Assembly: GCA_025362495.1 (NCBI GenBank)
Contig: JANYGI010000192.1
Coordinates: forward strand, 1 to 40,961
Source: Byssovorax sp.
GTDB lineage: Bacteria > Myxococcota_A > Polyangia > Polyangiales > Polyangiaceae
Length of the DNA: 40,961 nt
Direction: 5' to 3'
The notes under the pieces were generated by a model. The model searched no databases and had not been told where the DNA came from. It saw only the letters and a list, made by a program, of their open reading frames with translations. Made by a program: the position numbers and the translations under genes. The first letter of the stretch is position 1. The number at the start of each line of letters is the position of its first letter. This document shows positions 1 through 32,342 of this stretch, one piece after another.

Positions 1-364
1 GCTCGCTCTCCCCGCGGCCAGCTTCGATCGCATCATCTGCACCGAGGTGCTCGAGCACACCGTCGATCCCTCGGCCATCCTCGCCGAGATCGCCCGCCTG
101 CTCCGCCCGGACGGCGTCGCCGTCATCACCGTTCCCAACGATCCCCTCATCAATCGTTTGAAGGGCCTCGTCCGCCGCACGCCGGTGGGCTGGGCGATGG
201 GGAGCCGCATCCAGTGGGGCGGTGACATCTACCATCTGCACCAGTGGAAGCCGGCCGAGTTCGAGCAGCTCCTCGGGGCGCATTTTCGTGTGTCTTCAAG
301 GGACTTCGCGCCTCACGACACCTTGCCCATCCGCGCCTGTTACCGCTGCGTGCTCCCCCGATGA
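1..364 (+). CDS. Class I SAM-dependent methyltransferase, C-terminal part (truncated by window edge)
   Basis: The reading frame is already open at base 2, so the gene starts upstream of the window. The visible part reads EVLEHTVDPSAILAEIARLL then RPDG, which is the usual post-motif region of small Methyltransf_11-type methyltransferases (EVLEH, then a helix, then RPGG-like). It continues with a strand VAVITVP. The SAM-binding glycine motif would lie outside the window. Its TGA stop overlaps the ATG of the next gene in an ATGA arrangement (361-364), so the two are probably translationally coupled. The coupling to a glycosyltransferase suggests methylation of a sugar or lipid-linked intermediate; that is inference from context, and the substrate cannot be read from the sequence. 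Confidence 0.8.
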   Translation, partial: LALPAASFDRIICTEVLEHTVDPSAILAEIARLLRPDGVAVITVPNDPLINRLKGLVRRTPVGWAMGSRIQWGGDIYHLHQWKPAEFEQLLGAHFRVSSRDFAPHDTLPIRACYRCVLPR

Positions 365-2598
365 TCGACCTCGACAAGCCCGCTCCGACTCCGCCCGTCC
401 CGGTGGAGCTCTCCGTCATCGTTCCTTGCCTGAACGAGGAGCTCAACATCCCCGAGCTCAGCGAGCGCATCCTCGGCGTCTTCGCCGAAGGCGCCCTGCG
501 CGGCGAGCTGATCCTCGTCGACGACGGCTCGACCGACGGCACGGCCAGCGTGATCCGCGGGCTCGCCGCGGCGCACCCCGACGTGGTGATTGGCTGTTTC
601 CACCCGCAGAACCGCGGCATCGCGGGGGCCTGGCGCACCGGCGCGGCCTCGGCGCGCGGCAAGCTCGTCGCCACCATCGACGCCGATCTCCAGTACCAGC
701 CGGAAGACTTGCTCCGCCTGCGCCGCGAGCTCTACGAGCACAGCGTCGATATCGTCCAGGGGTTTCGCAGCGCCGTCGGCCGCCGCCAGGACCAGCGGTA
801 TCACCTCAGCCGCGGGTTCAACAGCTTCCTCAACGCCACCTTCGGCATGTCGCTCCGCGACAACAAGAGCGGCTTCGTCATGTGCGCCCGCGAGGTCTTT
901 CAAGACCTGCTAACGTACCGCGGCAGCTACTTCTACTGGCAGTCGTTCATCATGGTCGCGGCCCACGTGAAGGGCTACTCGTACAAGGAGATCGAGTCGC
1001 TCTTCGAGCAGCGCCGCCAGGGCACCTCGTTCCTCGAGAAGACGGCCCAGATCGCCGCCGTCAAATCGCTCGTCGACGTCGGCAAGGCCGCGTGGGAGTA
1101 CCGCGTCAGCCAGCCTCCGGCCGACGTGGCGACCCAGTTCCTCCGGCGAAACCCGGTGATCGATCGCTCTACCTCGCGCGATCCCCTGGCAATGATGCGC
1201 TGGCGCGCCTACCTCGCGGCCTTCAACCAGACCCACTGGATGATCACGCGCGACGTCGAGCACTACTACGAGACCCTGCGCAAGACGCAGTGGCTCTCTC
1301 CTTCCGATACGCGCGAGCTCCAGGACGAGAAGCTCCGCCGCCTCCTCCGGCACTGCTACCGCAACGTGCCTTATTATCGCTCGGCGATGCAGGCGCTCAA
1401 GCTGCGCCCGGAGGACATCCGCGGCCAGGCTGATCTCCACAAGCTGCCGTATCTCTCCAAGGCCGACATCCGCCGTCACCTCTACTTCGACATCATGTCG
1501 GAGAACCACGACAAGGCCCAGATCCTCAAGATCACCACCAGCGGCTCCACCGGCGAGCCCTTCGTCTGCTACGCCGATCGCGCGCAGCTCGAGTTTCGCT
1601 GGGCCGCCACGCTCCGCGCCCAGGAGTGGACGGGATACCGCTTCGGCGATCCCACGGTGCGCCTCTGGCACCAGACCATCGGGATGACGAAGAGCCAGGC
1701 CGCGCGCGAGCGCCTCGACGCCGCGCTCTCCAATCGATCCTTCATCCCCGTCTTCGAGCTCTCCGAGAGCAACATGCAGGCGATGGTGCAGACGATCGCC
1801 GCCGCCTCGCCCGTGCTGATGGATGGATACGCCGAGGCGCTGAACTTCCTCGCCGGTTATCTCAAGAGCACAGGCACCCTCGCGGTGCGCCCGCGAGCGC
1901 TGATGTCGAGCGCGCAGACCCTGCCCGCGTCGAGCCGCAAGCTGATCGAAGAGGCCTTTGGCTGCAAGGTCTTCGACAAGTACGGGAGCCGCGAGTTCTC
2001 GGGCATCGCCTACGAGTGCGAGGCGCACGACGGCCACCACGTCGTCGCCGAGGGCTACATCGTGGAGGTCTTGCGCGACGGCAAGCCCGCCTTGCCCGGC
2101 GAGATCGGCGAGGTGGTCATCACCGATCTCAACAACACCTGCATGCCCTTCGTCCGCTACCGGATCGGCGATCTGGCCGAGGCCATGGCCGACGTGCCTT
2201 GCACCTGCGGCCGCGGCGCCGCGCGGATCGGCGCCATTCAGGGGCGCGTTCAATCGATCATCCAGGGGACGGACGGGCGGTATCTGCCAGGCACCTTCTT
2301 CGCCCATTTTCTCAAGGAGTACGACTACGCTTTCAAGCGCTTCCAGGTGCTGCAAGACGAGCGCGACGCGATGACGTTCCGGGTCGTCAAGGGCGGTCGC
2401 TTCTCGGACGGCGTGCTCGAAGAGGTCCTGGCCACGTTCCGTCAGTACCTGGGCGAGCGGATGCGGATAACCGTCGAGTTCGTCGACGAGATAGCGCTCA
2501 TCCGTACCGGCAAGCACCTCGCCAGCGTCTCGCGGCTCAACGTCGATTTCCAGCGCACCGCGCCCTCGGTTATCACCGCCGGCGCGAACGGGAGATAG
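361..2598 (+). CDS. Fusion protein: family 2 glycosyltransferase plus phenylacetate-CoA ligase/CapK-like adenylating domain
   Basis: A 745-residue protein with two unrelated catalytic domains. Residues about 15-245 are a GT-A family 2 glycosyltransferase of the dolichol-phosphate-mannose-synthase type: LSVIVPCLNEE, VDDGSTDGT at about 53-61, and the metal-binding DAD at 107-109 followed by LQYQPEDL. Residues about 290-735 resemble the PaaK/CapK (coenzyme F390 synthetase) branch of adenylate-forming enzymes: RNVPYYR, the nucleotide-binding TTSGSTGEP near 390, KYGSREF at about 540, FVRYRIGD at 597 and a CxCGRG turn near 613. The first domain should transfer a sugar to a lipid phosphate; the second should activate a carboxylic acid as AMP or thioester. 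Start chosen at the ATGA overlap with the methyltransferase; an upstream in-frame extension to 244 would overlap that gene by 121 bases. Domain calls are firm; the substrates are unknown. Confidence 0.9.
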   Translation: MIDLDKPAPTPPVPVELSVIVPCLNEELNIPELSERILGVFAEGALRGELILVDDGSTDGTASVIRGLAAAHPDVVIGCFHPQNRGIAGAWRTGAASARGKLVATIDADLQYQPEDLLRLRRELYEHSVDIVQGFRSAVGRRQDQRYHLSRGFNSFLNATFGMSLRDNKSGFVMCAREVFQDLLTYRGSYFYWQSFIMVAAHVKGYSYKEIESLFEQRRQGTSFLEKTAQIAAVKSLVDVGKAAWEYRVSQPPADVATQFLRRNPVIDRSTSRDPLAMMRWRAYLAAFNQTHWMITRDVEHYYETLRKTQWLSPSDTRELQDEKLRRLLRHCYRNVPYYRSAMQALKLRPEDIRGQADLHKLPYLSKADIRRHLYFDIMSENHDKAQILKITTSGSTGEPFVCYADRAQLEFRWAATLRAQEWTGYRFGDPTVRLWHQTIGMTKSQAARERLDAALSNRSFIPVFELSESNMQAMVQTIAAASPVLMDGYAEALNFLAGYLKSTGTLAVRPRALMSSAQTLPASSRKLIEEAFGCKVFDKYGSREFSGIAYECEAHDGHHVVAEGYIVEVLRDGKPALPGEIGEVVITDLNNTCMPFVRYRIGDLAEAMADVPCTCGRGAARIGAIQGRVQSIIQGTDGRYLPGTFFAHFLKEYDYAFKRFQVLQDERDAMTFRVVKGGRFSDGVLEEVLATFRQYLGERMRITVEFVDEIALIRTGKHLASVSRLNVDFQRTAPSVITAGANGR

Positions 2599-2608
2599 GC
2601 ACTCTCGC

Positions 2609-4057
2609 ATGGCCGTCCACCCGGAGCGGGTCGTCACCGTCGCGAGGCCTGGCCTGGGCTACGCGCTCACGGCTCCCTACGACGCTCCGAACCCCGTTTA
2701 CGAGGCCGTCGAGGCCATGTTCCGCCGCCTCGGGCTCGACGCCGGGCGCGCCGGAACGCCGGAGTGGAACCCGCTCGGCGATCTGATCTCCCCCGGCGAT
2801 CGGGTGGTGATCAAGCCCAACCTGGTCTCCTCGAAGAACCTCGAACAGAAGATCACCGGCGACAGGCTGGCTGCGTCGAGCACGCATGGATCGCTCCTGC
2901 GCCCGGTGCTCGATTATGCCCTCCGCGCCGCCGGGTCTCGCGGGCAGATCCGCGTCATCGACTCTCCCGTCGAAGGGTGCGAGATCGAGAAGGTCGCCGG
3001 CCCGCTCGGCATTTTCGCCGTCATCGATCACCTGAAGAGCCGCGGCCACGACGTCGAGTTCATCGATCTGCGGTATTTCCGCGTCGCCCCGGTGTTCGCG
3101 CTCGACGACGTGCAGCGATTCGGCCGCTCGTGGAACCTCGGCCTGCTGCTGAGGCGGCGCTTGCCCGGCGATCCACGCGGCTACCGCGTCGTCGATCTCG
3201 GGCGCAGCAGCTCGTTCGCCGACGCGAGCGCTCCTTCTCTACGCGCGCTCCGCTTTCATCGCAGCCACTACGCGACGCCGGTTCCCCATCACACCGAGCA
3301 GCGCAACGAGTACAGCATCCCGAGGACGCTCCTCGAGGCCGACGTGGTCATCAACATCCCCAAGATGAAGACCCACAAGAAGACAGGGGTGACGCTCGCC
3401 CTCAAGAGCGTCATTGGACTGACCAACGAGAAGTACTGGTTACCTCACTTCACCGAGGGTGATCCGTCGGTGGGCGGCGACGAGTTCGACCGGCCTCAAC
3501 ACCTCTCCGAGGAGGTCGAGAACAAGCTCAGCCGCTTCCCGCTGCCGGGCGATCACTCGCTGGTGGCCCGCGCGCCGCGCCTCGGCCGGCCCTCGAAGAT
3601 CATCGACGGGAGCTGGGAGGGCAACAACACCCTCTGGCGGACGATCCTCGATCTCAACCGCGTGCTCTTCTTCGCCGATCGCGAGGGCCAGATCCGGGGC
3701 GAGCCGCAGCGGCGGTATCTCACGCTCGTCGATGGCATCGTCGCGGGCGAGGGCGAAGGGCCGCTCGGGGCGACTCCGGTCCACGCCGGACTGCTGGTCG
3801 GCGGGTTCGATCCCAGCCTCGTCGACGCGGTCTGTGCCGGCGTGATGGGCCTCGATCCCGCGCAGATCCCGCTCATCCGCGAGGCGCTGGGCGGGGTGCT
3901 CCTGCCGAGCGGGGATATCGCCAGGGTCGAGCACCTCGTCGATGGGCCGCCGCCGACTCACCGCTTCAAGCCGCCGCGGAGCTGGCCTTCGCTCCTCAGC
4001 GTGGCGGCGAGAGTGCCTCTCGCTGCCACGTCGCCTGGGCCTTCAACCCCTCGGTGA
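2609..4057 (+). CDS. DUF362 domain protein
   Basis: A 482-residue soluble protein of the DUF362 (COG2006) family. The hallmarks are DRVVIKPNLV in the N-terminal third and DVVINIPKMKTHKKTG followed by TLALKSVIGL in the middle. A late segment (LVDGIVAGEGEGPLG) is also typical. No ferredoxin-type cysteine clusters are visible, unlike DUF362 proteins fused to 4Fe-4S domains. The start lies 10 bases after the stop of the fusion gene, with GGGAGA upstream, so it is probably in the same transcript. The biochemical role of the family is not established; context suggests a step in glycoconjugate assembly. Its 3-prime end runs 62 bases into the convergent epimerase gene, encoding a basic, proline-rich tail that may not be conserved. 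Confidence 0.85.
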   Translation: MAVHPERVVTVARPGLGYALTAPYDAPNPVYEAVEAMFRRLGLDAGRAGTPEWNPLGDLISPGDRVVIKPNLVSSKNLEQKITGDRLAASSTHGSLLRPVLDYALRAAGSRGQIRVIDSPVEGCEIEKVAGPLGIFAVIDHLKSRGHDVEFIDLRYFRVAPVFALDDVQRFGRSWNLGLLLRRRLPGDPRGYRVVDLGRSSSFADASAPSLRALRFHRSHYATPVPHHTEQRNEYSIPRTLLEADVVINIPKMKTHKKTGVTLALKSVIGLTNEKYWLPHFTEGDPSVGGDEFDRPQHLSEEVENKLSRFPLPGDHSLVARAPRLGRPSKIIDGSWEGNNTLWRTILDLNRVLFFADREGQIRGEPQRRYLTLVDGIVAGEGEGPLGATPVHAGLLVGGFDPSLVDAVCAGVMGLDPAQIPLIREALGGVLLPSGDIARVEHLVDGPPPTHRFKPPRSWPSLLSVAARVPLAATSPGPSTPR

Positions 4058-4943
4058 GCGAGACCTTCGGCGCGTAGCCGAGAGCCTCCCGCGCCCGCGT
4101 CGTGTCGGCCCAGGTGTGGCGCACGTCGCCGGGTTGCTCGGCGCGCGGCTCGACGCGGACGGCGCCCGCGACCTCGCCCAGCGTGTGGAGCACCTGATTG
4201 ACGGTCACGCGCGAGCCGCCGCCGATGTTGAAGACGCCCACCGCGCTGGAGCTCATCGCCAGGATATTGGCGGCAACTGCATCTGTCACGAAAGTGAAGT
4301 CGCGCGTCTGCTCGCCGTCGCCGTAGAGGGGGATCGCCTCGCCGGCGAAGATCGCCTGGATGAAGCGGTGAAACCCCATGTCCGGCCGCTGCCGCGGGCC
4401 GTAGACGGTGAAGTAGCGGAGGGCGATCGTCGGCAATCCGAAGTTCTGGCGGTAGAGATCGCAGAGGTGCTCGCCCGAGAGCTTGGTGACGCCGTAGGGC
4501 GAGTAGGGCGCCGTCGGGCTCTCCTCGCGCATCGGCATCTCGTGCGTCTGGCCGTACACCGACGACGACGAAGAATAGATGATCTTGCGCGCCGAGCCCC
4601 GCTGCTTCACGGCCTCGAGCAGGCGCTGGGTCGCGAGCACGTTGTCGTGGAGATAGGTCCCGAAGCGATCACCCCAGCTCGCGCGCACGCCGGCCTGCGC
4701 AGCGAGGTGAAACACGAGCTCGGCGCCGTCGACCAGGGGCTCGAGCGCGGCTGTCGCGAGGTCGGTCTCCGAGAGCGAGAAGCCGGGCGCGTCGCGCAGC
4801 CGCGCGAGGTTCTTCTCCTTCACCGGGCGCGGATAATGGTCCGCGAAGCGGTCGACTCCGACCACCTCGTGCCCGAGATCGATCAACCGCTCTGCCAGGT
4901 GCGAGCCGATGAAGCCCGCCACGCCCGTCACCAGACAACGCAT
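3996..4943 (-). CDS. NAD-dependent nucleotide-sugar epimerase/dehydratase
   Basis: A 315-residue extended short-chain dehydrogenase. It has the NAD-binding glycine motif GVAGFIG at residues 7-13, the family segment LVFHLAAQAGVR, a Ser-rich catalytic stretch SSSSSVYG, the YxxxK dyad in SPYGVTKLSGEH, and the substrate-loop motif LRYFTVYGPRQRPDM. The last resembles UDP-glucuronate or UDP-glucose 4-epimerases and UDP-xylose synthases. It most likely interconverts or modifies a UDP-sugar feeding the neighbouring glycosyltransferases; the exact substrate cannot be settled from sequence. An AAGAGGA ribosome site precedes the ATG. The C-terminus overlaps the end of the convergent DUF362 gene by 62 bases. 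The flippase-like gene lies upstream on the same strand-direction set, with about 95 bases between. Confidence 0.88.
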   Translation of the reverse strand: MRCLVTGVAGFIGSHLAERLIDLGHEVVGVDRFADHYPRPVKEKNLARLRDAPGFSLSETDLATAALEPLVDGAELVFHLAAQAGVRASWGDRFGTYLHDNVLATQRLLEAVKQRGSARKIIYSSSSSVYGQTHEMPMREESPTAPYSPYGVTKLSGEHLCDLYRQNFGLPTIALRYFTVYGPRQRPDMGFHRFIQAIFAGEAIPLYGDGEQTRDFTFVTDAVAANILAMSSSAVGVFNIGGGSRVTVNQVLHTLGEVAGAVRVEPRAEQPGDVRHTWADTTRAREALGYAPKVSLTEGLKAQATWQREALSPPR

Positions 4944-5037
4944 CGTTCCTCTTCGTCCTCGCTCCGCCCGGATCGGGCCCGCCCAGCCTGGGCGCGAAGG
5001 CGGCGGGAGTCTACGCGATGCTGATCCCGGGGCAACT

Positions 5038-6027
5038 TCAGTCCTCGCCGACCGGGTTCTTCTCGGTGACGCTCTCCGGGACCGGGACGAGATAGGCGAT
5101 CCCGCACGCGAGGCAGGCGATGGCCGTCACGGCGCGCACCAGCATGGTGACCGCCGCGCCGTGCAGGGCGCCGACCATGCTGAAGAGCTTCTCGGCGACC
5201 ACGTCGGCCACGCCGAGCCCGAGAGGGGTTATCGGTACGCTGCTGGTCAAGGTCACCAGCGGTGTTATCGCGCAGGCCTCGACGAGCGAGACGGGAGCCC
5301 CGATGGCGAGGAAGCCCAGATACATCGAGGCGCAGCTCCCGAAATGGGCCACGCAGGAGAGGGTGAGCGCCGTGACGAGGACCGACCACCGCCCGCGGAA
5401 CGCCTCGAGCGAGCGGAAAAGCGCCGTCATCGCCGCGGAGCGCTCGATCAGCCCCCGGAGGCTCTTCGGCTTGGCCCGGAGCAGAAAGACCGTGATCCCG
5501 CCGAGCACCACGAGCAGCGCCACCACGAGATAGAGGATGTGGATCACCACGGGTGATCCGGTATGAATCAAGAGCAGCACCCCCGAGGTCAGGGCGAGCA
5601 CGCAGAGGCCGACGAGTCCGATGAAGCGGTCGAGGACCAGCGTTGCCAGGATGTCCGGTCCGCGGCCGGGGCTCACGCGAGACGCGTAATAGAGACGCAC
5701 CGCCTCCTGCCCGCCCGTGGCCGGGAGAATCAGGACCGCAAAGTAGCTGATCAGGCCTATCTGCACGATCTGGCGCGCAGTGAGCTCGATCTCGCGCGCT
5801 TTGAGGAGAAAGCTCCAGCGGAGGATCGGCACGAGGAGCACGACGGCCTGTCCCGCGACCACGCCGAGCAGCGCATACCCGACGTGAATGCGCGCGATCT
5901 CGTGAAAATCGAGCCGACCCGACCTCCACAGCCAGGCCACGAGTCCGGCGGCGAGCGCGAGCTTCGCGGCGAGCACCGCGCCACGGCGAAGGGCGCCATG
6001 CGCGCGGACCGCCGACTTTTCAGCCAT
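5038..6027 (-). CDS. Lysylphosphatidylglycerol synthase TM-region/UPF0104-type membrane protein (flippase-like)
   Basis: A 329-residue integral membrane protein with about eight hydrophobic helices. It carries the recognisable family pieces: W.SGRLDF after the first helix, LRWSFLLKARE, a conserved LPATGGQEAVRLYY stretch, LVLDRFIGL, and TPLGLGVADVV near the C-terminus. The family (PF03706) includes MprF-type flippase domains and many uncharacterised proteins in lipid-linked glycan clusters. Here it probably moves or helps make a lipid-linked intermediate; that is inference from context. The frame stays open upstream to 6396, but those codons give a basic, low-complexity peptide antisense to the next gene, so the ATG at 6027 (MAEKSAV) is preferred. 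Confidence 0.85.
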   Translation of the reverse strand: MAEKSAVRAHGALRRGAVLAAKLALAAGLVAWLWRSGRLDFHEIARIHVGYALLGVVAGQAVVLLVPILRWSFLLKAREIELTARQIVQIGLISYFAVLILPATGGQEAVRLYYASRVSPGRGPDILATLVLDRFIGLVGLCVLALTSGVLLLIHTGSPVVIHILYLVVALLVVLGGITVFLLRAKPKSLRGLIERSAAMTALFRSLEAFRGRWSVLVTALTLSCVAHFGSCASMYLGFLAIGAPVSLVEACAITPLVTLTSSVPITPLGLGVADVVAEKLFSMVGALHGAAVTMLVRAVTAIACLACGIAYLVPVPESVTEKNPVGED

Positions 6028-6106
6028 TTTGCGCACGCTAGCACGCTCCCGTCGGAGTCGTGAAGAGGATTGCGGGAGACCCGGGCGCGCGCTAAGTCGT
6101 CGCGCT

Positions 6107-7375
6107 GTGATCGCGGGACAGCCGGAAATCACGTGGGAGCGGGTGGCGCCGGGGATGACGGCGCCACCGGGCGGCCAGTCGGTCGTGGATCCGGATCGAG
6201 GCGCCGCGATCCTCCGCGCCGCATGGGCCGCGGCCCCGCGCGAGCTCGTCGCCGCGTTCGCGGAAGAGCAGATCGTGCTCGTCGTCAACGATCCTTGCCG
6301 GAGCACGCGCACCTCCGAGGCCCTCTCGGCGCTGTCGTCGTTTGCCGCGGAGAGCGGCCGCCGGCCGCGGTTTCGCGCGCTGGTGGCGACGGGCACGCAC
6401 CGCTTCTCCGCGAGCGAGCGCCGAGCATTCGAGTCCTCGACCTTCGCCGGCTCCGGCCTCTCGATAGACTCGGTCTCATGGCACGACGCGACCGACGACG
6501 AGAGCCTGCGTCCCCTGGGCGGAGCGTCAATCCACGAGCTGGTGGCGTCGGCGCGGGCGCTCGTTGCTGTCGGCAGCGTCGAGCCCCACTATTTCGCGGG
6601 CGCGACGGGAGCGCACAAGACACTCACCATTGGCTGCCTCGCCTACCGGGACATCGAGGAGAACCACCGCGGCGCGCTCGAGCCTTCCTCGGACGTGCTC
6701 CGGCTCGACGGCAACCCCGTTCACGAGGGGATTGTCCGCCTCGTCACGGCGCTGCGCCGGGGTCGCGTCGTCGTCGCGATGAACCAGGTGCTCTGCGGCG
6801 AGGCGGTCGTCGCTGCCCGCGTCGGCGATCCGATTGACACGCTCCACGCGCTGCTCCCGGATGCCCGGCGAGTCTACGCGCACGCGCTCGATCACGCGGC
6901 CGACGTCCTCCACCTGCGGGTGCCGTTGCCGCTGGGAAAGAGCTTCTATCAGGCCGACAAGGCGCTGAAGAACAACCACCGAGCCGTCGCCGACGGCGGG
7001 GGTATTCTCCTCGAAGCCGCGTGTCCGGACGGGATTGGACAGGACGCGTTCGTCCGGCTCCTCCGCTCCGCGAGCAGCTACGCGGAGGCGTGCAATCAGG
7101 TGACGCAGGAGGGCTATCGCCTCGGGGATCACAAGGCGGTCAAGCTCCGACACCTCACCGATCCGGCGGCGCGGGGCGTTCATGTCGCGCTGCTCGGCGC
7201 ACCCATCTCGCCGGACGCGTGCCGCCTGCTCGGCGTCCACGCCGTAACGTCGGTCGACGAGGGCCTCTCGTGGCTCGCCGCGCGCGTCGGTCGGCCGCTC
7301 TTGCGCGGCGTGTGCGTCGAGGATGCAGGGATGGTCTGCGTCACCGCGCCGGATGCCGGCGCTGCGCGGCGCTGA
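6107..7375 (+). CDS. LarA-type (DUF2088) nickel-pincer-dependent racemase/epimerase homologue
   Basis: A protein of about 422 residues related to lactate racemase LarA. It has GTHR (His98), EPHYFAG (His161), Lys171 and His187. The spacings His161-Lys171 (+10) and Lys171-His187 (+16) equal those I recall between His174, Lys184 and His200 of characterised LarA. There the Lys carries the nickel-pincer nucleotide, the last His binds nickel and the first two His act in catalysis. It should therefore bind that cofactor and shift a hydrogen on a 2-hydroxy acid or sugar acid. The maturation genes larB, larC and larE are absent from the window. The GTG at 6107 is chosen over an ATG at 6155 because the intervening residues (PEITWERVAPG) look coding; the true start is uncertain. 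It diverges from the flippase-like gene and converges on a glycosyltransferase 6 bases away. Confidence 0.85.
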   Translation: MIAGQPEITWERVAPGMTAPPGGQSVVDPDRGAAILRAAWAAAPRELVAAFAEEQIVLVVNDPCRSTRTSEALSALSSFAAESGRRPRFRALVATGTHRFSASERRAFESSTFAGSGLSIDSVSWHDATDDESLRPLGGASIHELVASARALVAVGSVEPHYFAGATGAHKTLTIGCLAYRDIEENHRGALEPSSDVLRLDGNPVHEGIVRLVTALRRGRVVVAMNQVLCGEAVVAARVGDPIDTLHALLPDARRVYAHALDHAADVLHLRVPLPLGKSFYQADKALKNNHRAVADGGGILLEAACPDGIGQDAFVRLLRSASSYAEACNQVTQEGYRLGDHKAVKLRHLTDPAARGVHVALLGAPISPDACRLLGVHAVTSVDEGLSWLAARVGRPLLRGVCVEDAGMVCVTAPDAGAARR

Positions 7376-7381
7376 GCCGTC

Positions 7382-8128
7382 CTACCGCTGGTCGCGCTGG
7401 TCGCGCCGGAGCTCAATCCAGAGACGAGTCATGTCCTCCAGCGCGCGGCGGATATTGCGATAGTTCGCCGAGGACGGCTTGCCGGTGAGGCGGCGGTGAT
7501 ATTCAACCTCCACCTCGACGACGCGCATCCCGCGGCGGTGGGCCCGGATGATCTTCTCCGGCGTGATGAAGGATGTGGCGTCGGAGATCGTCGGCAGATC
7601 GTGGAGCACGTGACGCCGGTAGATCTGGATGAAGTTGTAGTCACGGACCGGCGCGCCGAACATGGCGTGAAGGAGAGAGCGGTTCACGAAGGAGACGAAC
7701 TGCCGGGGCAGGGTGATCCCGGGGTAGGTCCGGCGAGCTGCCACCACGATGTCGGCGTCCGGGAGGCGCGACAAGAGGGCGGGGAGATCCTCGAAATCAA
7801 ACGGGTAGTCGACTGCGTTGTGAGTCACGAAGGGGAGTGTTGCAATCTCGAAGCCGAGCTTCAGGCACCCACCTTGACGGAGGTTCTTCGCGTTGTGGAC
7901 GACGCGGATCTCGGGGTAGCGCTGGGCCAGCTCGTCGGCGATGGCGCCGGTGCGATCCACGCTGCAATCGTCGATGATGATGACCTCGAAGCGACCGACC
8001 ATCCGGCGCAGCGTCGCGACCGCGCACGGCAGCGTTCGCTGGAGATTCGACTCCTCGTTGTAGGCGGGGAAGATGACGCTCAGGCCGACGTCCGGAAAGC
8101 GTGGAGTCTCGGTCTCGATCTCGGTCAC
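7382..8128 (-). CDS. Family 2 glycosyltransferase (polyprenyl-phosphate glycosyltransferase type)
   Basis: A 248-residue GT-A glycosyltransferase without membrane helices. It shows [14 protein letters not shown] at the N-terminus, [13 protein letters not shown], and a later [13 protein letters not shown] where dolichol-phosphate-mannose-synthase-like enzymes usually carry DxD plus DPxDL. The basic C-terminal helix ([12 protein letters not shown]) could contact the membrane. The likely role is transfer of one sugar to a polyprenyl phosphate or to a growing glycan. The start is a GTG whose last two bases form the TGA of the upstream acetyltransferase (GTGA, 8125-8128), indicating translational coupling. 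It is the last gene of a three-gene minus-strand set and ends 6 bases from the convergent LarA-like gene. Confidence 0.88.
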
Positions 8129-8805
8129 AGCAGGCGCTCCCAGTCCGTTGCGTCGTCGACCGCGCGGATCACGCGCGCGGGTACGCCGTACGCCACCGTG
8201 CGAGGGGGGATGTCTCGGGTGACGACCGCGCCCGCGCCGACGATCGCCCCCTCGCCCACGCGCACCCGCGGCGCGAGGGTGACGCCGGTGGCGATGAAGG
8301 CGCCGCGCCCGACGTGCACGCGCCCGCCCATGCGCGCGCCGGGGCTCACCGAGCTCCCGTCCTCCAGCACGCAGTCGTGCTCGACGACGGCCCCGGTGTT
8401 GACGATGACGTGGGCTCCGACCCGAGCGCTGGTGTGGACGACCGTCGCGGCGAGCACCACCGTGCCCGGACCGATCTCGGCCGACGGCGAGATCACGGCC
8501 GAAGGGTGGATGACGCGCCCCCAGACGACTCCCATGCTGGTGAGGCGCTCGGCGAGCTCGAGCCGGAGGGGGCATTTCCCGATCGCCAGGACAACCGAGC
8601 TCCCTGGCGTCGACGCCAGGGCGAGGGGGCCAATCACCGGGGCGCCGAGCACGGAGGTGCCTCGTGCCCGGGGCGCGTCGTCGAGAAAGGCAATCTCCCT
8701 CCCCGGGCTCTGCGCCCGAGCGGCCTCGAGGACGACGCGACCCTGCGCGCCCGCCCCCACGACAAACAAACGACCCTCTGCGGCCAAGCCGACGGGGCCG
8801 CTCAT
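8125..8805 (-). CDS. PglD/NeuD-type sugar O/N-acetyltransferase
   Basis: A 226-residue acyltransferase. The N-terminal half is a Rossmann-like PglD_N domain ([18 protein letters not shown], later [11 protein letters not shown]). The C-terminal half is a left-handed beta-helix of hexapeptide repeats ([56 protein letters not shown]). The [10 protein letters not shown] segment contains the His expected to act as base in PglD. Such enzymes acetylate an amino group put on the sugar by a DegT aminotransferase, and such an aminotransferase is the gene just upstream. The ATG at 8805 is preferred because GGAAGAGG stands at the right distance (8808-8815). A GTG at 8847 overlapping the upstream stop is the alternative. 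Confidence 0.88.
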
Positions 8806-8843
8806 CGCCTCTTCCGGGCGGGGCCCCCAGCGGTCCCGCCCGA

Positions 8844-9998
8844 TCACGACAGCAGGCTGCGCTCGAGCGCGGTGATCACCACGCGCTGCTGCGAGGCGAG
8901 CAGCCCGGGGAAGATCGGGAGAAACATCGTCTCTTGCGCGGCCGCCTCGGTCTCGGGGAGGTGCAGTCCGGCCATCTCCTCCTTGAACACCGGCTCGAAG
9001 TGGAGCGGTGGTATGCCGCGGCGGCAGGACACGTTGCGCTCGGCCATGCGTCGAACCACCTCTTCCGCAGGCACCTTGGCCGAGGGGGTGAGGCGGATGC
9101 AATACGAGGAGTAGGCGTGGGCCGCGTACGCGGGCACATGCGGCGGGCGGACCTCGTCGAAGCGGGCGAGGAGCTCGCCGTAGAGGCTCGCCTGCTCCGC
9201 GCGCTGCTCGAGCATGCGGTCGAGCTTCGTGAGCTGCACGACGCCGACGGCGGCCTGGAGGTCCGTCATCCGGTAGTTGTAGCCCGACTCGAAATACTGC
9301 TGAAACAGAGCACCCTTGGCCTGGTGGCGACGGAGATCCGACACCGAGGCGCCGGTGGATCGCAGCGTCCTCGCGCGCTCTGCCCACGCCTCGTTGTCGG
9401 TGACCAGCATCCCGCCTTCGCCGGTGGTGATCATCTTGCGCGGGTGGAAGCTGTAGCAGGTGGGGACGCCGTGACCGCCGACGTAGCGCCCCTTGTATTT
9501 CCCGCCGAAGGCCGTCGCCGCGTCGTCGATGAGGAGCAGGCCGTGCCGGTCGGCCACGGCGCGGAGGGCGTCCAGATCGGCCGGGAGGCCGATCTGATCG
9601 ACCATCATGATCGCTCGCGTGCGCGGGGTGATCCGCCGCTCGACGTCGGCTGGATCGAGGTTCAGCGTGTCGCGCTCGATGTCGACGAAGCGGGGCACGC
9701 CGCCGGCGATGAGCACCGCGTTGGCGTTGGCCATGCAGGTGAACGAGGGGAGCAGCACCTCGTCGCCGCGCTCGAGGCCCATCGTCTGCATCGCGAGGTG
9801 GAGGGCGCTCGTGGCCGAGTTGGTCGCCACGGCGTGCTTCGCGCCGACGAGCGCGGCGATCTTCTGCTCGAGCTCCGCGACCTTGGGGCCGAGGCTGATC
9901 CAGCCGGATGCGAGCACGTCGCGCACCGCGTTGCCCTCTTCTTCGCCCAACCACGGCCGCATCAGTGGGATGTGCTCGGAGAAGAGATCTTCGTTCAT
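8844..9998 (-). CDS. DegT/DnrJ/EryC1/StrS sugar aminotransferase
   Basis: A 384-residue PLP-dependent sugar aminotransferase. It begins [16 protein letters not shown], then has [26 protein letters not shown], and the PLP lysine at 188 in [14 protein letters not shown]. The later [17 protein letters not shown] matches the family. The residue after DDAA is Thr rather than the common Gln or His. It should add an amino group to a keto-sugar nucleotide. With the adjacent PglD/NeuD acetyltransferase it forms a pair like PglE/PglD, which makes 4-acetamido sugars; the 4,6-dehydratase of that pathway is not in this window. First gene of its set, transcribed divergently from the wbp-like operon across a 198-base spacer. 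Confidence 0.92.
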
Positions 9999-10109
9999 CT
10001 GGGTCGTTTACCGCGCGGCGCGCCGCGCGTCGCGGCGAAAGGACGCGGAGCCTAACACGCGGCCCGCGCGCGTCCACACCTTCGCCGGGCGGATCGCGGA
10101 ACCCGCGCA

Positions 10110-10196: not shown

Positions 10197-10691
10197 ATGA
10201 TTGCCGACGACGTCAAGCTCGGTCAGCACGTCAAGATATATCAGCCTACCCTGGTCAACCTCTACGGCTGCGAGATCGGCGACGGCTCGAGTATCGGCGC
10301 CTTCGTGGAGATCCGGCGGGGCGTGAAGCTCGGCAAGAACGTCAAGGTGCAGGCCTTCGCCTTCATCCCCGAGGGCGTCACCATCGAGGACGGCGTGTTC
10401 ATCGGGCCGCACGCTTGCTTCACCAACGACCTCTATCCGCGCGCCACCCGCCCGGACGGCTCGCTCCAGACAGCAGCGGACTGGAAGCAGGTCTCCACCA
10501 CGGTCAAGACCGGGGCGAGCATCGGCGCCAACGCCACCATCGTGTGCGGAGTCACCATCGGCGAGCACGCGATGGTCGCCGCAGGAGCCGTGGTCACGCG
10601 CGACGTGCCGCCTTACGCGCTGGTGATGGGGGTGCCTGCCCGCGTCACCGGCGACACCCGAACGCTCGACGAGGACCACGGCAAACAATGA
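10197..10691 (+). CDS. wbpD: WbpD-type UDP-sugar 3-N-acetyltransferase
   Basis: A 164-residue left-handed beta-helix acetyltransferase made almost wholly of hexapeptide turns: [39 protein letters not shown] then [42 protein letters not shown]. The FTNDLYPR signature is characteristic of the WbpD/WlbB family, which acetylates the 3-amino group of UDP-GlcNAc(3NH2)A. The next two genes encode the matching dehydrogenase and aminotransferase, which strengthens the call. GCGAGG precedes the ATG. Its stop overlaps the ATG of the dehydrogenase gene (ATGA, 10688-10691). Confidence 0.88.
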
Positions 10692-11707
10692 TTGGAATCG
10701 GCGTCATCGGTTACGGGTACTGGGGCCCCAACCTGGTTCGAAACATGATGGAGACGCCTGGCGTGGTGGTCCGGTCCATCTGCGACGCGAGCCCGGCGCA
10801 GCGCGCGCGCGCGGCGGCCCGGTGCCCCTCGGCGCGGACCCTTGCCGATCCGCAGGAGCTCATCGCGGATCCCTCGATTGACGCGGTCGTCATCGCCACT
10901 CCGGTGACCACCCACTTCGAGCTCGCGGCGAAGGCGCTCGAGGCGGGCAAGCACGTCCTGGTCTCGAAGCCGATGACCGCGACCGTGGACGAGGCGTCGC
11001 GGCTCGTGGATCTCGCGGCGGCCCGGGGCAAGGTCCTGCTCGTCGATCACACCTTCGTTTACACCGGCGCGGTCCGTAAAATGAAGGAAATCATCGACAG
11101 CGGCTCGCTCGGGGAAGTGCTCTATTACGACTCGGTGCGGGTGAACCTCGGCCTGTTCCAGCGCGACGTGAACGTCATCTGGGATCTCGCCCCCCACGAC
11201 GCCTCGATCATCGAATACCTGGTCCCGAGTCAGCCCGTCGCCGTCTCAGCTCACGGCGTGAGCCACGTCCGTGGCCAGCCGGAGAACATCGCGTACGTCA
11301 CGCTCTTTTACCCGAACAACCTCATCGCCCACCTCCACGTCAACTGGCTCGCTCCGGTCAAGATCCGCCAGACGCTGATCGGCGGTACGCGGAAGATGAT
11401 CGTCTACAACGATCTCGAGACGAGCGAGAAGATCAAGGTCTACGACCGCGGCGTCGAGCTCACCGAGGTCGAGTCGACGCCCGAGAAGATTTATCCGCTC
11501 CTCGTCGCCTACCGCGCCGGCGACATGTTCGCGCCCAAGGTCGCGGACGCCGAAGCGCTCCGCGTCGAGGCCGCGCACTTCGTCGACTGCATCGAGCGGG
11601 GGACGCGCCCGCTCACCGATGGAGAGTCCGGCCTGCGCGTGGTGCGCATCCTCGAGGCCGCAACCGAGTCCATGGCCACTGGCAAGCTCGTAGAGCTCAA
11701 GCACTGA
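10688..11707 (+). CDS. wbpB: WbpB-type Gfo/Idh/MocA sugar-nucleotide dehydrogenase
   Basis: A 339-residue NAD(P)-dependent oxidoreductase of the Gfo/Idh/MocA family. The N-terminal Rossmann fold reads IGVIGYGYWGPNLVRN, followed by VVIATPVTTHFELAAKAL. The usual EKP motif appears as LVSKPMTATVDEAS: the Lys is kept and the Glu is replaced by Ser. The C-terminal alpha/beta domain includes NVIWDLAPHDASI. In the WbpB/WlbA pathway this enzyme oxidises C3 of UDP-GlcNAcA to the 3-keto sugar, which the WbpE aminotransferase then uses. Order wbpD-wbpB-wbpE with a 4-base overlap and a 14-base gap supports one transcript. Confidence 0.88.
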   Translation: MIGIGVIGYGYWGPNLVRNMMETPGVVVRSICDASPAQRARAAARCPSARTLADPQELIADPSIDAVVIATPVTTHFELAAKALEAGKHVLVSKPMTATVDEASRLVDLAAARGKVLLVDHTFVYTGAVRKMKEIIDSGSLGEVLYYDSVRVNLGLFQRDVNVIWDLAPHDASIIEYLVPSQPVAVSAHGVSHVRGQPENIAYVTLFYPNNLIAHLHVNWLAPVKIRQTLIGGTRKMIVYNDLETSEKIKVYDRGVELTEVESTPEKIYPLLVAYRAGDMFAPKVADAEALRVEAAHFVDCIERGTRPLTDGESGLRVVRILEAATESMATGKLVELKH

Positions 11708-11721
11708 GAAGGCATTCGAGC

Positions 11722-12834
11722 ATGATCCCGTTTGTCGATTTGAAGGCGCAGTATCACAGCATCAAACCCGAGATCGACGCGGCCATCGCGCGCGTCCTCG
11801 AGACCACGCAGTTCGTCCTCGGCAGCGAGGTCGCGGCCTTCGAAAAGGAGTTCGCACGCTACTGCGAGACCGATCAGGCGATCGGGGTCAACACCGGGAC
11901 GAGCGCCCTCCACCTCGCCCTCCTCGCCGCCGGCGTGTGCCCGGGCGACGAGGTGTTGACCACGCCGTTCACCTTCGTGGCGACGGTCGCGGCGATCGGC
12001 TACGCCGGCGCTCGCGCGACGTACGTCGACATCGATCCGAGGTCGTTCACGATCGATCCTGCGAAGATCGAGGAGGCGATCACCCCCCGCACCAGGGTGA
12101 TCATGCCCGTTCATCTCTACGGCCAGGCCGCGGACATGGATCCGATCCTCGAGATCGCGCGGCGCCGTGGTCTCGTGGTGATCGAGGACGCTGCCCAGGC
12201 CCACGCGGCGCGCTACAAGGGCAAGCGGCTCGGGAGCCTGGGAGATCTCGGCTGCTTCAGCTTCTACCCCGGGAAGAACCTCGGCGCCTACGGCGAGGGC
12301 GGCGCGGTGGTGACCAGCAACCCGGAATACACGGAGAAGATTCGCCTGCTCCGCGACTGGGGTGCTCCGGTCCGTTATCAGCACAAGCTCAAGGGGTACA
12401 ATTACCGACTCGAGGGCATGCAGGGCGCCATCCTGAACGTGAAGCTCCCGCGGCTAGACGCCTGGACGAACGCGCGTCGCGCTCACGCGGCCGAGTACAC
12501 CGCGGCGCTCGCCGGCAGCGGCGTCGAGACGCCGGCCGTGTGCGCGTACGGCGAGCACGTGTTTCACATCTACGCAGTGCGCACCCGGCAGCGCGCGGCG
12601 CTCCAGACGTTCCTCTCCGAGCGGCAGATCCAGACCGGGATTCATTACCCGATCCCGGTTCACCTCCAGGAGGCTTATGCGGATCCGGCCTACCCCCCGG
12701 GGAGCTTCCCGCACACGGAGGCGGCGGCGAGCGAGGTGCTGTCGCTCCCGATGTTCGCCGAGCTCACCTCCGAGCAAATTCGCGAGGTAGCCTCCGCGAT
12801 TCACGAGTTCGGGCGCACGAGCCGCGGAGCGTAA
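11722..12834 (+). CDS. wbpE: WbpE-type sugar 3-aminotransferase (DegT family)
   Basis: A 370-residue DegT/DnrJ/EryC1/StrS aminotransferase. It begins IPFVDLKAQYHSIKPEID, a start typical of the WbpE/WlbC group. It then shows TSALHLALLAAGV, VIEDAAQAHAARYKGKRLGS (the canonical DAAQ), the PLP lysine at 185 in SFYPGKNLGAYGEGG, and GYNYRLEGMQGAIL. The C-terminal IQTGIHYPIPVHLQEAY is also typical. It should aminate UDP-3-keto-GlcNAcA using glutamate. Its place directly after WbpB and close to WbpD argues for a UDP-2,3-diacetamido uronic acid product. Confidence 0.92.
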   Translation: MIPFVDLKAQYHSIKPEIDAAIARVLETTQFVLGSEVAAFEKEFARYCETDQAIGVNTGTSALHLALLAAGVCPGDEVLTTPFTFVATVAAIGYAGARATYVDIDPRSFTIDPAKIEEAITPRTRVIMPVHLYGQAADMDPILEIARRRGLVVIEDAAQAHAARYKGKRLGSLGDLGCFSFYPGKNLGAYGEGGAVVTSNPEYTEKIRLLRDWGAPVRYQHKLKGYNYRLEGMQGAILNVKLPRLDAWTNARRAHAAEYTAALAGSGVETPAVCAYGEHVFHIYAVRTRQRAALQTFLSERQIQTGIHYPIPVHLQEAYADPAYPPGSFPHTEAAASEVLSLPMFAELTSEQIREVASAIHEFGRTSRGA

Positions 12835-12838
12835 TCCC

Positions 12839-13816
12839 ATGAAGTCAATTGATCTCCGAGGTTGTCGCGCGCTCGTCACGGGGGGCGCCGGCCTGGTCGG
12901 CTCGCACATCGTCGATCAGCTCGTCGAGGCGGGCGCCGGCGACATCGTCGTGCTCGACAGCTTCGTCCGCGGTACCCGGAGCAACCTGGAGAAGGCGCTC
13001 ACTCACCCCGAGGTGCGCGTCGTCGAAGGGGACATCCGCGACACGGCGCTCCTGGCGCAACAGATGGAGGGAGTCGACATCCTCTTTCACCAGGCCGCGA
13101 TCCGAATCACCCAGTGCGCCGAGGAGCCGCGCCTGGCCGTCGACGTGCTGGTGAACGGGACGTTCAACGTGATTGAGGCCGCTGCCCGGGCGAACGTCAA
13201 GAAGGTGGTCGCGGCCTCCTCGGCCTCTGTCTACGGGCTCGCGTCGCAGTTCCCCACCGACGAGGATCATCACCCGTACGCGAATCGTACGCTCTACGGC
13301 GCGGCCAAGACCTTCAATGAAGGCCTGCTCCGCAGCTTCAACGAGATGTACGGGCTCGACTACGTCGCTCTCCGCTACTTCAACGTCTATGGCCCGCGGA
13401 TGGACATGCACGGTGTCTACACCGAGGTGCTGATCCGCTGGATGATGCGGATCATTGAGGGGAAAGCCCCGATCATCTTCGGCGACGGATTGCAGACGAT
13501 GGACTTCGTCTACATCGAGGACATCGCCCGGGCGAACCTCCTGGCCGCGCAGGCGGACGTCACCGATCGCGTCTTCAACGTCGCCAGCGGCCACGAGACC
13601 AGCCTGGGCGATCTCGCCCGGTCGCTGATGCGCGTGATGGGGGCCGATCTCCCGATCGAGTACGGGCCCGAGCGCAAGGCGAACCCGGTCCCGCGGCGGC
13701 TCGCCGATACCCGCGACGCCGAGAAAATGCTGGGTTTCCGCGCCACGGCCTCGCTCGACGAGGGGCTCGAGCGGCTGGTCACCTGGTGGAAGAAGGAGAG
13801 GAGTCGCACCTCGTGA
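12839..13816 (+). CDS. NAD-dependent nucleotide-sugar epimerase
   Basis: A 325-residue extended SDR enzyme. It has the NAD motif VTGGAGLVGSHIVDQL, then RGTRSNLEKAL, DILFHQAAIRITQCAEEPRL, the catalytic ASSASVYG, the YxxxK dyad in LYGAAKTFNEGLLR, and LRYFNVYGPRMDMHGVYTEV. It resembles UDP-glucose or UDP-GlcNAc 4-epimerases. It could set the gluco/galacto configuration of the amino sugar made by the wbp-like genes or of a separate building block. The ATG sits 5 bases after the wbpE stop. Its own stop overlaps the GTG of the next gene (GTGA, 13813-13816). Confidence 0.88.
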   Translation: MKSIDLRGCRALVTGGAGLVGSHIVDQLVEAGAGDIVVLDSFVRGTRSNLEKALTHPEVRVVEGDIRDTALLAQQMEGVDILFHQAAIRITQCAEEPRLAVDVLVNGTFNVIEAAARANVKKVVAASSASVYGLASQFPTDEDHHPYANRTLYGAAKTFNEGLLRSFNEMYGLDYVALRYFNVYGPRMDMHGVYTEVLIRWMMRIIEGKAPIIFGDGLQTMDFVYIEDIARANLLAAQADVTDRVFNVASGHETSLGDLARSLMRVMGADLPIEYGPERKANPVPRRLADTRDAEKMLGFRATASLDEGLERLVTWWKKERSRTS

Positions 13817-14997
13817 TCCCGATCATCAGGCCTCTGCTGGGGACCGAAGAGTCCGACGCCGTGACTGCCGTCCTCCAGTCGGGCTGGCTGACGCAGGGGA
13901 AGAAGGTCGCCGAATTCGAGCGAGATTTTGCGGCGGCCGTGGGCGCGCCCCACGCGTGCGCCGTCTCCAACTGCACGACCGCGCTCCACCTCGCGCTGAT
14001 GGTCGCCGGCGTCGGCCCCGGCGACGAGGTGATCACGGCGAGCCACTCGTTCATCGCCACGGCGAACGTGATCCGGTATTGCGGCGCTCTCCCGGTGTTC
14101 GTCGACGTCCAGCCGGGCACGTTCAACCTCGATCCCGCCCTCGTCGCCGCGGCGATCTCGCCCCGAACCAGAGCGATCCTCGTCGTTCATCAGATGGGCA
14201 TGCCCTCCGATTTGCATGCCCTCCTCGACCTCGCCGCCGCGCGCGGTGTCCCAGTGATCGAGGACGCAGCCTGCGCCGCGGGCAGCGAGATTGAGTGGCA
14301 AGGACGCTGGGAGCGGATCGGCAAGCCTCATGGCGTGATCGCCTGCTTCTCCTTTCATCCGCGGAAGATCCTCACGACCGGCGACGGCGGGATGATCACC
14401 ACCAGCAACCCGGACTACGACCGTCAGTTCCGCCTGCTCCGGCAACATGGCATGAGCGTCCCGGACTCGGTGCGGCATGGATCTCCTCAGGTGCTGTTCG
14501 AGGACTACCCGGTCGTCGGCTACAACTACCGGATGACGGACATTCAGGCCGCGGTGGGCGTCGAGCAGCTCCGACGCTTGCCGGCGCTGGTGGCGAGGCG
14601 GAGGGAGATCGCCGCGCGCTATCGAGCGCTCCTGGCCAACGTCCCTGGGCTGATCCTCCCCGTCGAGCCCGCCTGGGCGCGTACCAACTGGCAGAGCTTC
14701 TGTGTTCGCCTCCCCGACGGCCTCGGTCAGCGCGCGACGATGCAAGCCATGCTCGACGACGGGATCGCCACCCGGCGCGGCATCATGTGCACGCACCGCG
14801 AGCCGTCTTATCCGCGGACCACGTGGCTTTGCGGTGCCTGCCGGTCCACCGACGGCCAGGCGTGCGCGTGCCTCCGCGAGGGCGAGCGCGCCCAGGAGCA
14901 CTGCATCATTCTCCCGGTCTATCACCAGATGACCGACGCGGAGCAGGACCAGGTGGTCGATTCGTTGCTCCGGGCGTGCGGGGCTTCGAGAGGGTGA
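13813..14997 (+). CDS. DegT-family sugar aminotransferase with a cysteine-rich C-terminal insertion
   Basis: A 394-residue PLP aminotransferase: IPIIRPLLGTEESDAV, NCTTALHLALMVAGVGPGDE, VIEDAACAAGSEIEWQG, the PLP lysine at 185 in SFHPRKILTTGDGG, and [18 protein letters not shown]. Residues about 324-362 form an insertion holding six cysteines (CTHREPSY, WLCGAC, QACAC, EHC). It sits before the final helix at the place where the active-site entrance usually lies; the pattern could bind a metal. The GTG start at 13813 overlaps the epimerase stop and has GGAGAGGAG upstream; a GTG at 13786 is the alternative. The substrate is probably another keto-sugar nucleotide or sugar, distinct from the WbpE substrate. 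Confidence 0.88.
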   Translation: MIPIIRPLLGTEESDAVTAVLQSGWLTQGKKVAEFERDFAAAVGAPHACAVSNCTTALHLALMVAGVGPGDEVITASHSFIATANVIRYCGALPVFVDVQPGTFNLDPALVAAAISPRTRAILVVHQMGMPSDLHALLDLAAARGVPVIEDAACAAGSEIEWQGRWERIGKPHGVIACFSFHPRKILTTGDGGMITTSNPDYDRQFRLLRQHGMSVPDSVRHGSPQVLFEDYPVVGYNYRMTDIQAAVGVEQLRRLPALVARRREIAARYRALLANVPGLILPVEPAWARTNWQSFCVRLPDGLGQRATMQAMLDDGIATRRGIMCTHREPSYPRTTWLCGACRSTDGQACACLREGERAQEHCIILPVYHQMTDAEQDQVVDSLLRACGASRG

Positions 14998-24174: not shown

Positions 24175-25290
24175 TCAGATCGCGTAGTCCTGGACGAAGA
24201 CCTTGGCGTCGCGGAGGTTCACGAGGACGCGATCGCCTTCGTGGAGGCCGAGCTCGGCGACGCGATCCTTGGTGAGCTCGACGGCGAGCGGCTGCCCATC
24301 GGCGAGCCGCAGCTCCATCTTCACCATGAAGCCGACGCGCGAGATCCGCTCGATTTCCGCGGTGGCGACGGCAGGGCGCGAGTCGGCGAGGGGGCTGTCG
24401 CCGCCCCCGTCGGTGTCGACGCGGCCGCGCAGCTCGATGTCGTGCGGCCGCACGAACGCGTGGAGTCGCGCGCCGTCGCTCGTGCCGGGCGGCGCGTGGA
24501 CGGCGAGCGTGCCGAGCGCGGCGCGCCCGCCGAAGGCCTGCCCCTTGAGCAGGTTGATCGATCCGACGAAGCTCGCCACGAACTCGGTCGCGGGGCGATC
24601 GTAGATCTCTTCCGGCGTGCCGATCTGCTCGACGCGGCCTTTTTGCAGGACGATCACGCGATCGGCGAGATCGAACGCCTCTTCCTGATCGTGGGTGACG
24701 AAGACGCTGGTGATGCCGCGCTCCTTGTGAAGACGGCGGATCCACTCGCGGAGCTCGACGCGGACCTTGGCGTCGAGGGCGCCGAACGGCTCGTCGAGGA
24801 GCAGCAGCGAGGGCTTCGGCGCGAGCGCGCGCGCGAGGGCGACGCGCTGCCGCTGCCCGCCGGACAGCTCGGCGGGGAAGCGGTTGCCGAGCGCGTCGAG
24901 CTGCACGAGGCCGAGCAGCTCGTCGACGGTGGCGTCGATCTCTTTCTGCGGGCGCTTCCGGATCTCGAGGCCGAAGGCGATGTTCTTGCGCACCGTCATG
25001 TGACGGAAGAGCGCGTAGTGCTGGAAGACGAAGCCGACGGCGCGGTCCTGCACCCGCTGGCCATTGGCGTTCACGCCGTCGAGGAGCACGTCGCCGCGAT
25101 CGGCTTCTTCCAGGCCGGCGATGATGCGAAGCACGGTGCTCTTCCCGCCGCCGCTCGGGCCGAGGAGGGCGACGAGCTCGCCGCGCGGGACCTCGAACGA
25201 GACGTTGTCGACGACCTTCGTCGCCCCGAACGACTTCTCGAGGCCACGGACGACGATGCCAAGGGGTGCGGAAGAATCAGTCGAGCTCAA
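24175..25290 (-). CDS. cysA: CysA-type ABC transporter ATP-binding protein
   Basis: A 371-residue ATPase. Walker [10 protein letters not shown] is at residues 44-52, followed by the Q loop [13 protein letters not shown], signature [16 protein letters not shown], Walker [17 protein letters not shown] and the switch [10 protein letters not shown]. The phrase [10 protein letters not shown] and the segment [20 protein letters not shown]-like region match sulfate/thiosulfate importer CysA, and a C-terminal TOBE-like regulatory region follows. The permeases CysT and CysW and a sulfate-binding protein are not beside it, so it must pair with components elsewhere or serve another importer. The nearby cysK is compatible with a sulfur role. 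It starts at the ATG at 25290. Confidence 0.85.
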
Positions 25291-25414
25291 CGACGCGGAA
25301 GATTACGCAGGATCGGGCTCAGGGCAACCTCTTCGTTGGATTGTCCCATCGGAGAGGTGCGCCAATCACGTTCTCCGTGCGTTTCCTGGGGCGCTCCGGC
25401 ACCCTGCGCGGTCG

Positions 25415-25738: not shown

Positions 25739-25759
25739 ACGGGTCCATGGCGCGCCTTG

Positions 25760-25773
25760 TTTACACACGTAAA
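25760..25773. promoter_or_regulatory. Small inverted repeat before the Cys-rich lipoprotein gene
   Basis: TTTAC (25760-25764) and GTAAA (25769-25773) form a dyad around ACAC in an AT-richer patch, about 57 bases before the ATG at 25830. It overlaps a weak promoter-like pair (TTGTTT, 16 bases, TATCCA). It could be an operator or promoter element; the short length leaves chance possible. Confidence 0.25.
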
Positions 25774-25829
25774 TCCTCTATCCAGCGCGGCCCATTCGAG
25801 TAATGTCCCGCCGCTAAACGGAGGCCCTG

Positions 25830-26111: not shown

Positions 26112-26126
26112 GCTCCGTCGTTCAGT

Positions 26127-30314: not shown

Positions 30315-30401
30315 ATCGGCTAGTTCCGCCCGCCAAAAATCCTGGCAGACTTTTGAGCCGCTGCGCGGCCGCTTCGCGCGTGCGAAACGAGCGCTGTTTC
30401 G

Positions 30402-32331: not shown

Positions 32332-32342
32332 GTCGATCTCCT

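Follow-up and report, generated by a model that had tools for sequence, protein, structure and literature searches.

The closest described counterparts of the gene analysed here are enzymes of the LarA (nickel-pincer nucleotide, NPN) superfamily, namely the lactate racemase LarA of L. plantarum (PDB 5huq, 6c1w), the malate racemases Mar1 (LarAH5) and Mar2 (LarAH6; PDB 6d6z, 7s91) and the gluconate 2-epimerases GntE1 and GntE2. The accessible text of PMC7583248 distinguishes 25 LarA-like groups (e.g. group 4, with a GHK motif) and, with that of PMC11770544, supplies the LarA residue roles against which we made our comparison. The same portions of these two papers give His or Gln together with Lys, at the positions of LarA W358 and T359, as the mark of malate racemases. 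For the four positions that govern selectivity, the available part of PMC11770544 gives the rule F, F, W and E/Q for lactate racemases and E, V, A and H for gluconate 2-epimerases. A further set of LarA-like proteins, described in PMC12611868, has a single catalytic histidine and genomic contexts that hint at carbohydrate metabolism.

We analysed a larA-like gene at 6107..7375 (+) in a stretch of 40,961 nucleotides (hereafter the window), which is the whole of contig C103 of a 10.8 Mb genome. The gene lies among glycan genes, and an earlier note had suggested that its product epimerises a sugar acid or a hydroxy-acid substituent of the glycan. Our joint reading, to which we assign a probability of roughly 0.6, is that the product is a malate-like 2-hydroxy-acid NPN enzyme that would belong to general hydroxy-acid metabolism, with the glycan setting being incidental.

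Family assignment and key residues

The gene encodes 422 aa from a GTG start, with an alternative in-frame TTG at 6029. Its frame (6107-7375, +) is open throughout, and the G+C content of the three codon positions (0.75/0.53/0.86) resembles that of the adjacent genes. The protein matched Pfam Lar_N at 67.4 bits (cut-off 23.3; E 1.3e-18) and LarA_C at 27 bits (cut-off 25; E 4.8e-6). When solved structures were searched by sequence, the best match was the malate racemase Mar2 (E 3.4e-21), followed by lactate racemases from 2e-18 (L. plantarum LarA, 3.8e-18); a broad-spectrum LarA was also among the matches (E 1.9e-11). Judged from its sequence, the product of 6107-7375 is a member of the LarA superfamily.

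In the alignment with L. plantarum LarA, the catalytic residues D72, H108, H174 and K298 correspond to D62, H98, H161 and K285 of the window protein, the NPN-binding residues R75, K184 and H200 to R65, K171 and H187, and Y294 and Q295 to Y281 and Q282, so that all of these LarA residues are matched. The earlier note had placed LarA-type residues at His98, His161, Lys171 and His187; the alignment puts them at exactly these positions, and the spacings of +10 and +16 that it reported equal those of LarA 174/184/200.

We compared 16 sites across 38 sequences, all of which had been retrieved for their similarity to the window protein. D62, R65, H98, H161, K171 and H187 were constant in all 38, and K285 in 37. 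The protein might nevertheless have a LarA fold without using the cofactor, or might bind it for another purpose; residues have been lost in some LarA-like groups (accessible portion of PMC7583248) and in a paralogue on contig C42 of the same genome. Every catalytic and cofactor residue is kept in the window protein and in all ten of its close relatives, which argues against such a loss, and we regard it as highly improbable. The proteins described in the available part of PMC12611868 share the LarA family and are without the second catalytic histidine, whereas the window protein keeps both. Going by its family, it is a believable nickel-cofactor enzyme that would act on a 2-hydroxy acid.

Pocket residues and probable substrate class

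At the four selectivity positions the window protein has Y162, F163, H342 and K343, the last two lying at the positions of LarA W358 and T359. H342 and K343 agree with the malate-racemase mark (H/Q and K), whereas the four residues depart from the lactate-racemase signature (F, F, W, E/Q), and no lactate genes were identified in the window. The domains, the catalytic and NPN residues and the His-Lys side-chain positions are shared with Mar1 and Mar2. Mar2 differs in having Gln before the catalytic Lys, where the window protein has Asp, and Tyr-Lys after the second catalytic His, where the window protein has Tyr-Phe.

By the published residue rules, the protein is thus classed as malate-racemase-like. 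The best NCBIfam models were likewise those of the malate racemases, LarAH6 (144.8 bits against an equivalog cut-off of 500) and LarAH5 (137.9 against 462); the lactate racemase model gave 94 bits against a cut-off of 460. Since the protein scores far below all NCBIfam equivalog cut-offs, including those of Mar1/LarAH5 and Mar2/LarAH6, malate as the substrate is not established.

The H342-K343 pair was present in 24 of the 38 sequences; it was absent from 13 proteins of relatives (L012-L024) and from L038. Asp precedes the catalytic Lys in 17 of the 24 sequences with the pair (the window protein, its ten close relatives, L076 and L082-L086) and Glu in another five (L077-L081); L036 has Leu at this place, and L037 has Gln, as does Mar2. 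The intact key residues and an acidic residue that stays constant next to the catalytic Lys point to a branch of putative nickel-pincer enzymes that has no NCBIfam name.

A sugar-acid substrate was one of the two suggested by the earlier note. An epimerase of a free sugar acid (of the gluconate or uronate type) serving the glycan would suit the sugar-nucleotide genes that lie all round, and gluconate 2-epimerases do occur within the LarA superfamily (accessible text of PMC7583248). The window protein shares this superfamily and its cofactor chemistry with GntE1 and GntE2, but has Y162, F163, H342 and K343 in place of the E, V, A and H of the gluconate-epimerase pocket. Moreover, the sugars used in glycan pathways are nucleotide-bound and thus are not free 2-hydroxy acids. 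Sugar-acid epimerisation is therefore disfavoured, and we consider it very unlikely. Because the pocket carries the malate-racemase mark and not that of the gluconate epimerases, a hydroxy-acid racemase is the likelier of the two.

From the family we infer how such an enzyme would be loaded and would act. NPN would be held on Lys171, with His187 as a nickel ligand and Arg65 binding the phosphate. By analogy with the LarA mechanism (as given in the available part of PMC11770544), a 2-hydroxy acid would be inverted at C2 by proton-coupled hydride transfer; His98 and His161 would take turns as acid and base, and the hydride would pass to the pincer ring and then back to the other face of the substrate. 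The substrate would probably be a dicarboxylic 2-hydroxy acid of the malate kind (malate itself, tartrate, 2-hydroxyglutarate or 4-hydroxy-2-oxoglutarate), and His342-Lys343 would hold its second carboxylate. Asp284, which lies just before the catalytic Lys285 and is constant in the near relatives, probably tunes the side chain.

Gene neighbourhood in the window and in relatives

On the 5′ side of the larA-like gene, the window carries a single 784-aa frame that joins a GT2 glycosyltransferase domain to a PaaK-like AMP/CoA ligase domain (244..2598, +), a DUF362 protein (2609..4057, +), an NAD-dependent epimerase/dehydratase (3996..4943, −) and a flippase-like LPG_synthase_TM protein (5038..6027, −). 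On the 3′ side there follow a GT2 glycosyltransferase (7382..8128, −), an acyltransferase resembling PglD and perosamine N-acetyltransferase (8125..8805, −) and a DegT sugar aminotransferase resembling ArnB and perosamine synthetase (8844..9998, −). Beyond these lies a run of plus-strand genes: a hexapeptide acyltransferase (10197..10691, +), whose best solved-structure match, 3mqg, is a lipopolysaccharide biosynthesis acetyltransferase; a Gfo/Idh/MocA dehydrogenase (10688..11707, +), for which the best NCBIfam model was UDP-GlcNAc 3-dehydrogenase at 162.8 bits against a cut-off of 450; a WbpE/QdtB-like DegT aminotransferase (11722..12834, +); an NAD-dependent sugar epimerase/dehydratase (12839..13816, +); and a further DegT aminotransferase, with PseC as its best NCBIfam match, below cut-off (13786..14997, +). 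The surroundings are thus as the earlier note had described them (i.e. glycosyltransferases, a flippase-like protein and sugar aminotransferases), with several of the genes on the minus strand.

The plus-strand ORFs at 3942-5024, 4909-5556, 5563-6063, 7496-8875 and 8664-10055 were rejected as genes, as they have no family match and clear minus-strand genes occupy the same regions. Farther along the window (24175-33989, −) are sugar-type ABC transporter genes, an alpha-amylase and a LamB porin, which together look like a maltodextrin uptake cluster.

The larA-like gene is the lone plus-strand gene between the flippase-like gene (start 6027, −) and the GT2 gene (end 7382, −). It is divergent from the former and convergent with the latter, and so has no operon in common with either.

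The setting raises the alternative that the enzyme supplies a 2-hydroxy dicarboxylic acid in its D (or L) form; after activation, the acid would be joined through an amide bond to an amino sugar, itself a product of the neighbouring genes. The WbpE-like aminotransferase, the hexapeptide acyltransferase and the Gfo/Idh protein, which is nearest to a 3-dehydrogenase model, lie in one run, a second pairing of DegT and PglD-like acyltransferase genes is present, and activation of an acid could fall to the PaaK-like domain. We take the WbpE-like, hexapeptide acyltransferase and Gfo/Idh set to be of the kind that builds amino sugars of the diamino-glucuronic-acid type. In the accessible part of PMC3210612, amide-linked D-malic acid is described on 2,3-diamino-2,3-dideoxyglucuronic acid in polysaccharides, as are polysaccharides with R-malic or R-2-hydroxyglutaric acid; the available text of PMC9912281 describes amide-linked lactyl and glyceric groups in glycans.

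The amino-sugar gene set, the PaaK-like domain and these known acid-bearing glycans make a supply role chemically sensible. If it were true, the nickel-pincer cofactor would have a biosynthetic role at the cell surface, and this would explain where certain bacterial surface glycans obtain D-malic acid or unusual D-hydroxy acids. The orientation of the larA-like gene, shared with neither neighbour, speaks against a supply role, and the acyltransferases of the window could equally use plain acetyl groups. Our literature search, with most subscription papers outside its scope, found nothing tying LarA, nickel-pincer enzymes or DUF2088 to glycosyltransferases or polysaccharide.

The contexts of related larA-like genes bear on the same question. 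Among the identified direct neighbours of the ten nearest relatives there was no glycan gene, some neighbours having no family or lying beyond the contig end. When 14 window neighbours were compared by tblastn with 23 larA-like loci (L026-L035, L039, L040 and L087-L097), matches were found in L035 only (DegT and epimerase), at 4-7 kb from the larA-like gene. In L035, the one locus of the ten with distant glycan genes, a GT2/methyltransferase, DegT and epimerase lie 4-9 kb upstream. L040, the locus of the 39% identical relative L037, has two GT2 genes ∼2.7 kb from the larA-like gene, beyond FAD-oxidase and iron-sulfur genes; they are too dissimilar to those of the window for a tblastn match. 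With the genes of the other loci scanned in part, L035 and L040 were the two loci with glycan genes at a distance.

These two loci count in favour of the acid-supply role, and the direct neighbours of the ten nearest relatives count against it. We judge that role unlikely overall. Spelled out as a pathway in which L-malate (or a similar acid) is converted to the D form, activated by the PaaK-like domain and attached by an N-acyltransferase to the amino-sugar product of the Gfo/Idh and WbpE-like proteins, we hold it to be quite unlikely. A conserved glycan neighbourhood was not found in the close relatives, and the proposal of a glycan role as a property of the larA-like enzyme is not supported by the contexts of the ten nearest of them. 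The earlier note had itself named missing larB, larC and larE, replaced residues or homologues scattered in unrelated contexts as evidence against its view; the catalytic residues are kept and the three genes are present, but the contexts are indeed scattered, so that this objection applies in part.

The most repeated context contains a KDPG/KHG aldolase, which lies directly upstream of the larA-like gene in four of the ten close relatives (L026, L028, L030 and L033); eda-type models match the aldolases of L026 and L033. In all four loci the larA-like gene is followed, in order, by ferritin, threonine-aldolase-like and S9 peptidase genes. (Pfam searches covered L026 and parts of L028 and L033; the remaining genes were joined by similarity.) The aldolase link represents two lineages, one of which comprises three similar loci that are 71-76% identical.

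The adjacency and the shared downstream order (ferritin, then threonine-aldolase-like) would suit a racemase of 4-hydroxy-2-oxoglutarate or a related acid that enables cleavage by an eda-type aldolase. The arrangement occurs in four of ten loci, from two lineages, and is absent from the window, and eda-type aldolases act in other pathways too; we therefore consider this role rather unlikely for the window protein. No literature tying 4-hydroxy-2-oxoglutarate aldolase to lactate racemase was found, most subscription papers again being outside the scope of the search.

Apart from the aldolase loci, the contexts of the close relatives are unlike one another. In L035 (6672-11236), CbiM, one family-less gene, CbiQ and an ECF ATPase lie directly upstream of the larA-like gene on the same strand; a cobalt/nickel-type ECF uptake system in this place fits nickel. 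The neighbours in L029 are DUF4114 and an alpha/beta hydrolase, and those in L032 an NTPase and BNR repeats. L031 has an L,D-transpeptidase-like gene upstream, with a small family-less ORF and then an AIR-synthase-like gene downstream. In L027 there is a family-less protein and then a cadherin-like giant, with the contig ending just downstream, and L034 has a carboxypeptidase downstream and no family match upstream.

Oxidases of the hydroxy-acid type lie next to several more distant relatives: L077 and L079 (loci L088 and L090), with Glu before the catalytic Lys, adjoin an FAD-linked oxidase and a hydantoinase/oxoprolinase, and L037 (locus L040) adjoins an FAD-linked oxidase and an iron-sulfur protein. 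The aldolase, ECF transporter and FAD-linked oxidase contexts suggest concrete candidate substrates. The most likely role of the window enzyme would be one in general hydroxy-acid metabolism; that its gene lies among glycan genes is probably incidental.

Distribution of the gene and cofactor genes of the host

The relatives search matched 15 of 97 genomes at E 0.001, including the host's own, with a next-best identity of 36%. In a sample of the host phylum, four of 377 genomes matched at E 1e-20, again including its own; the others were 41, 39 and 29% identical. A scan of a contig collection for close relatives gave 24 candidate stretches, ten of which were confirmed, at 48-55% identity. These ten closest relatives found are all titled Planctomycetota or Phycisphaerae/Phycisphaerales. 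In a Planctomycetota sample, 12 of 392 genomes matched at E 1e-40, the eleven beyond that of L026 itself at 39-46%. One larA-like match, L082 in genome G620, has a single internal TGA.

The window protein grouped with its ten close relatives at 83/100 in a 38-row tree, at an open fork; the bootstrap is unsettled, with the very long branch of L038 inside the group. Transfer of the larA-like gene between phyla may fairly be inferred. The composition of the gene is that of its host. A recent arrival by composition was rejected, as a larger deviation than that of the larA-like gene was seen in 25 of 133 window segments of equal length. The window as a foreign contig was likewise rejected: its tetranucleotide profile correlates at 0.983 with four further stretches from this genome, as against 0.44-0.91 for nine loci of Planctomycetota genomes.

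Profile searches of the genome returned larB (272.7 bits), larC (188.7 bits) and larE (291 bits), each over its cut-off; C195 carries larC and larB at a short distance from each other, and C176 carries larE. All three genes that the earlier note had proposed to look for are thus present and, with the catalytic and cofactor residues kept, they uphold its assignment of the protein to the nickel-pincer type.

Two further proteins of the genome, on C42 and C132, matched Lar_N. The C42 protein has Lys and His at the places of K184 and H200 but is without the second catalytic His and the YQxxK motif; the missing His led us to reject it as an equivalent of the larA-like protein. The C132 protein belongs to DUF362 (71.5 bits), lies below the Lar_N cut-off and was likewise rejected as an equivalent.

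Eight of nine sampled Lar_N proteins of relatives resemble the C42 type (the ninth, L050, is in the wrong frame). We found larC in 80 of the 97 genomes of the relatives search, and a close larA-like copy in the window's own genome only. Where the Lar_N match reached at least 69 bits, larC was present in 54 of 55 genomes, as compared with 26 of the other 42 (kinship uncorrected); it was also present in nine of the ten genomes that carry a close relative of the larA-like gene. Because larC is common in relatives without a close larA-like copy, larBCE of the host may mainly serve another Lar_N protein, e.g. one of the C42 type.

A LarA-like protein at L041:6684-9044 is likewise without the second catalytic His. 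DUF362 belongs to the same Pfam clan as Lar_N, according to the accessible part of PMC11770544. In two DUF362 proteins of this genome, at window 2609-4057 (+) and L042:6452-7711, a His is followed by a Lys at exactly +10, like H174-K184 of LarA, and the one on C132 also has a His at +16, like H200.
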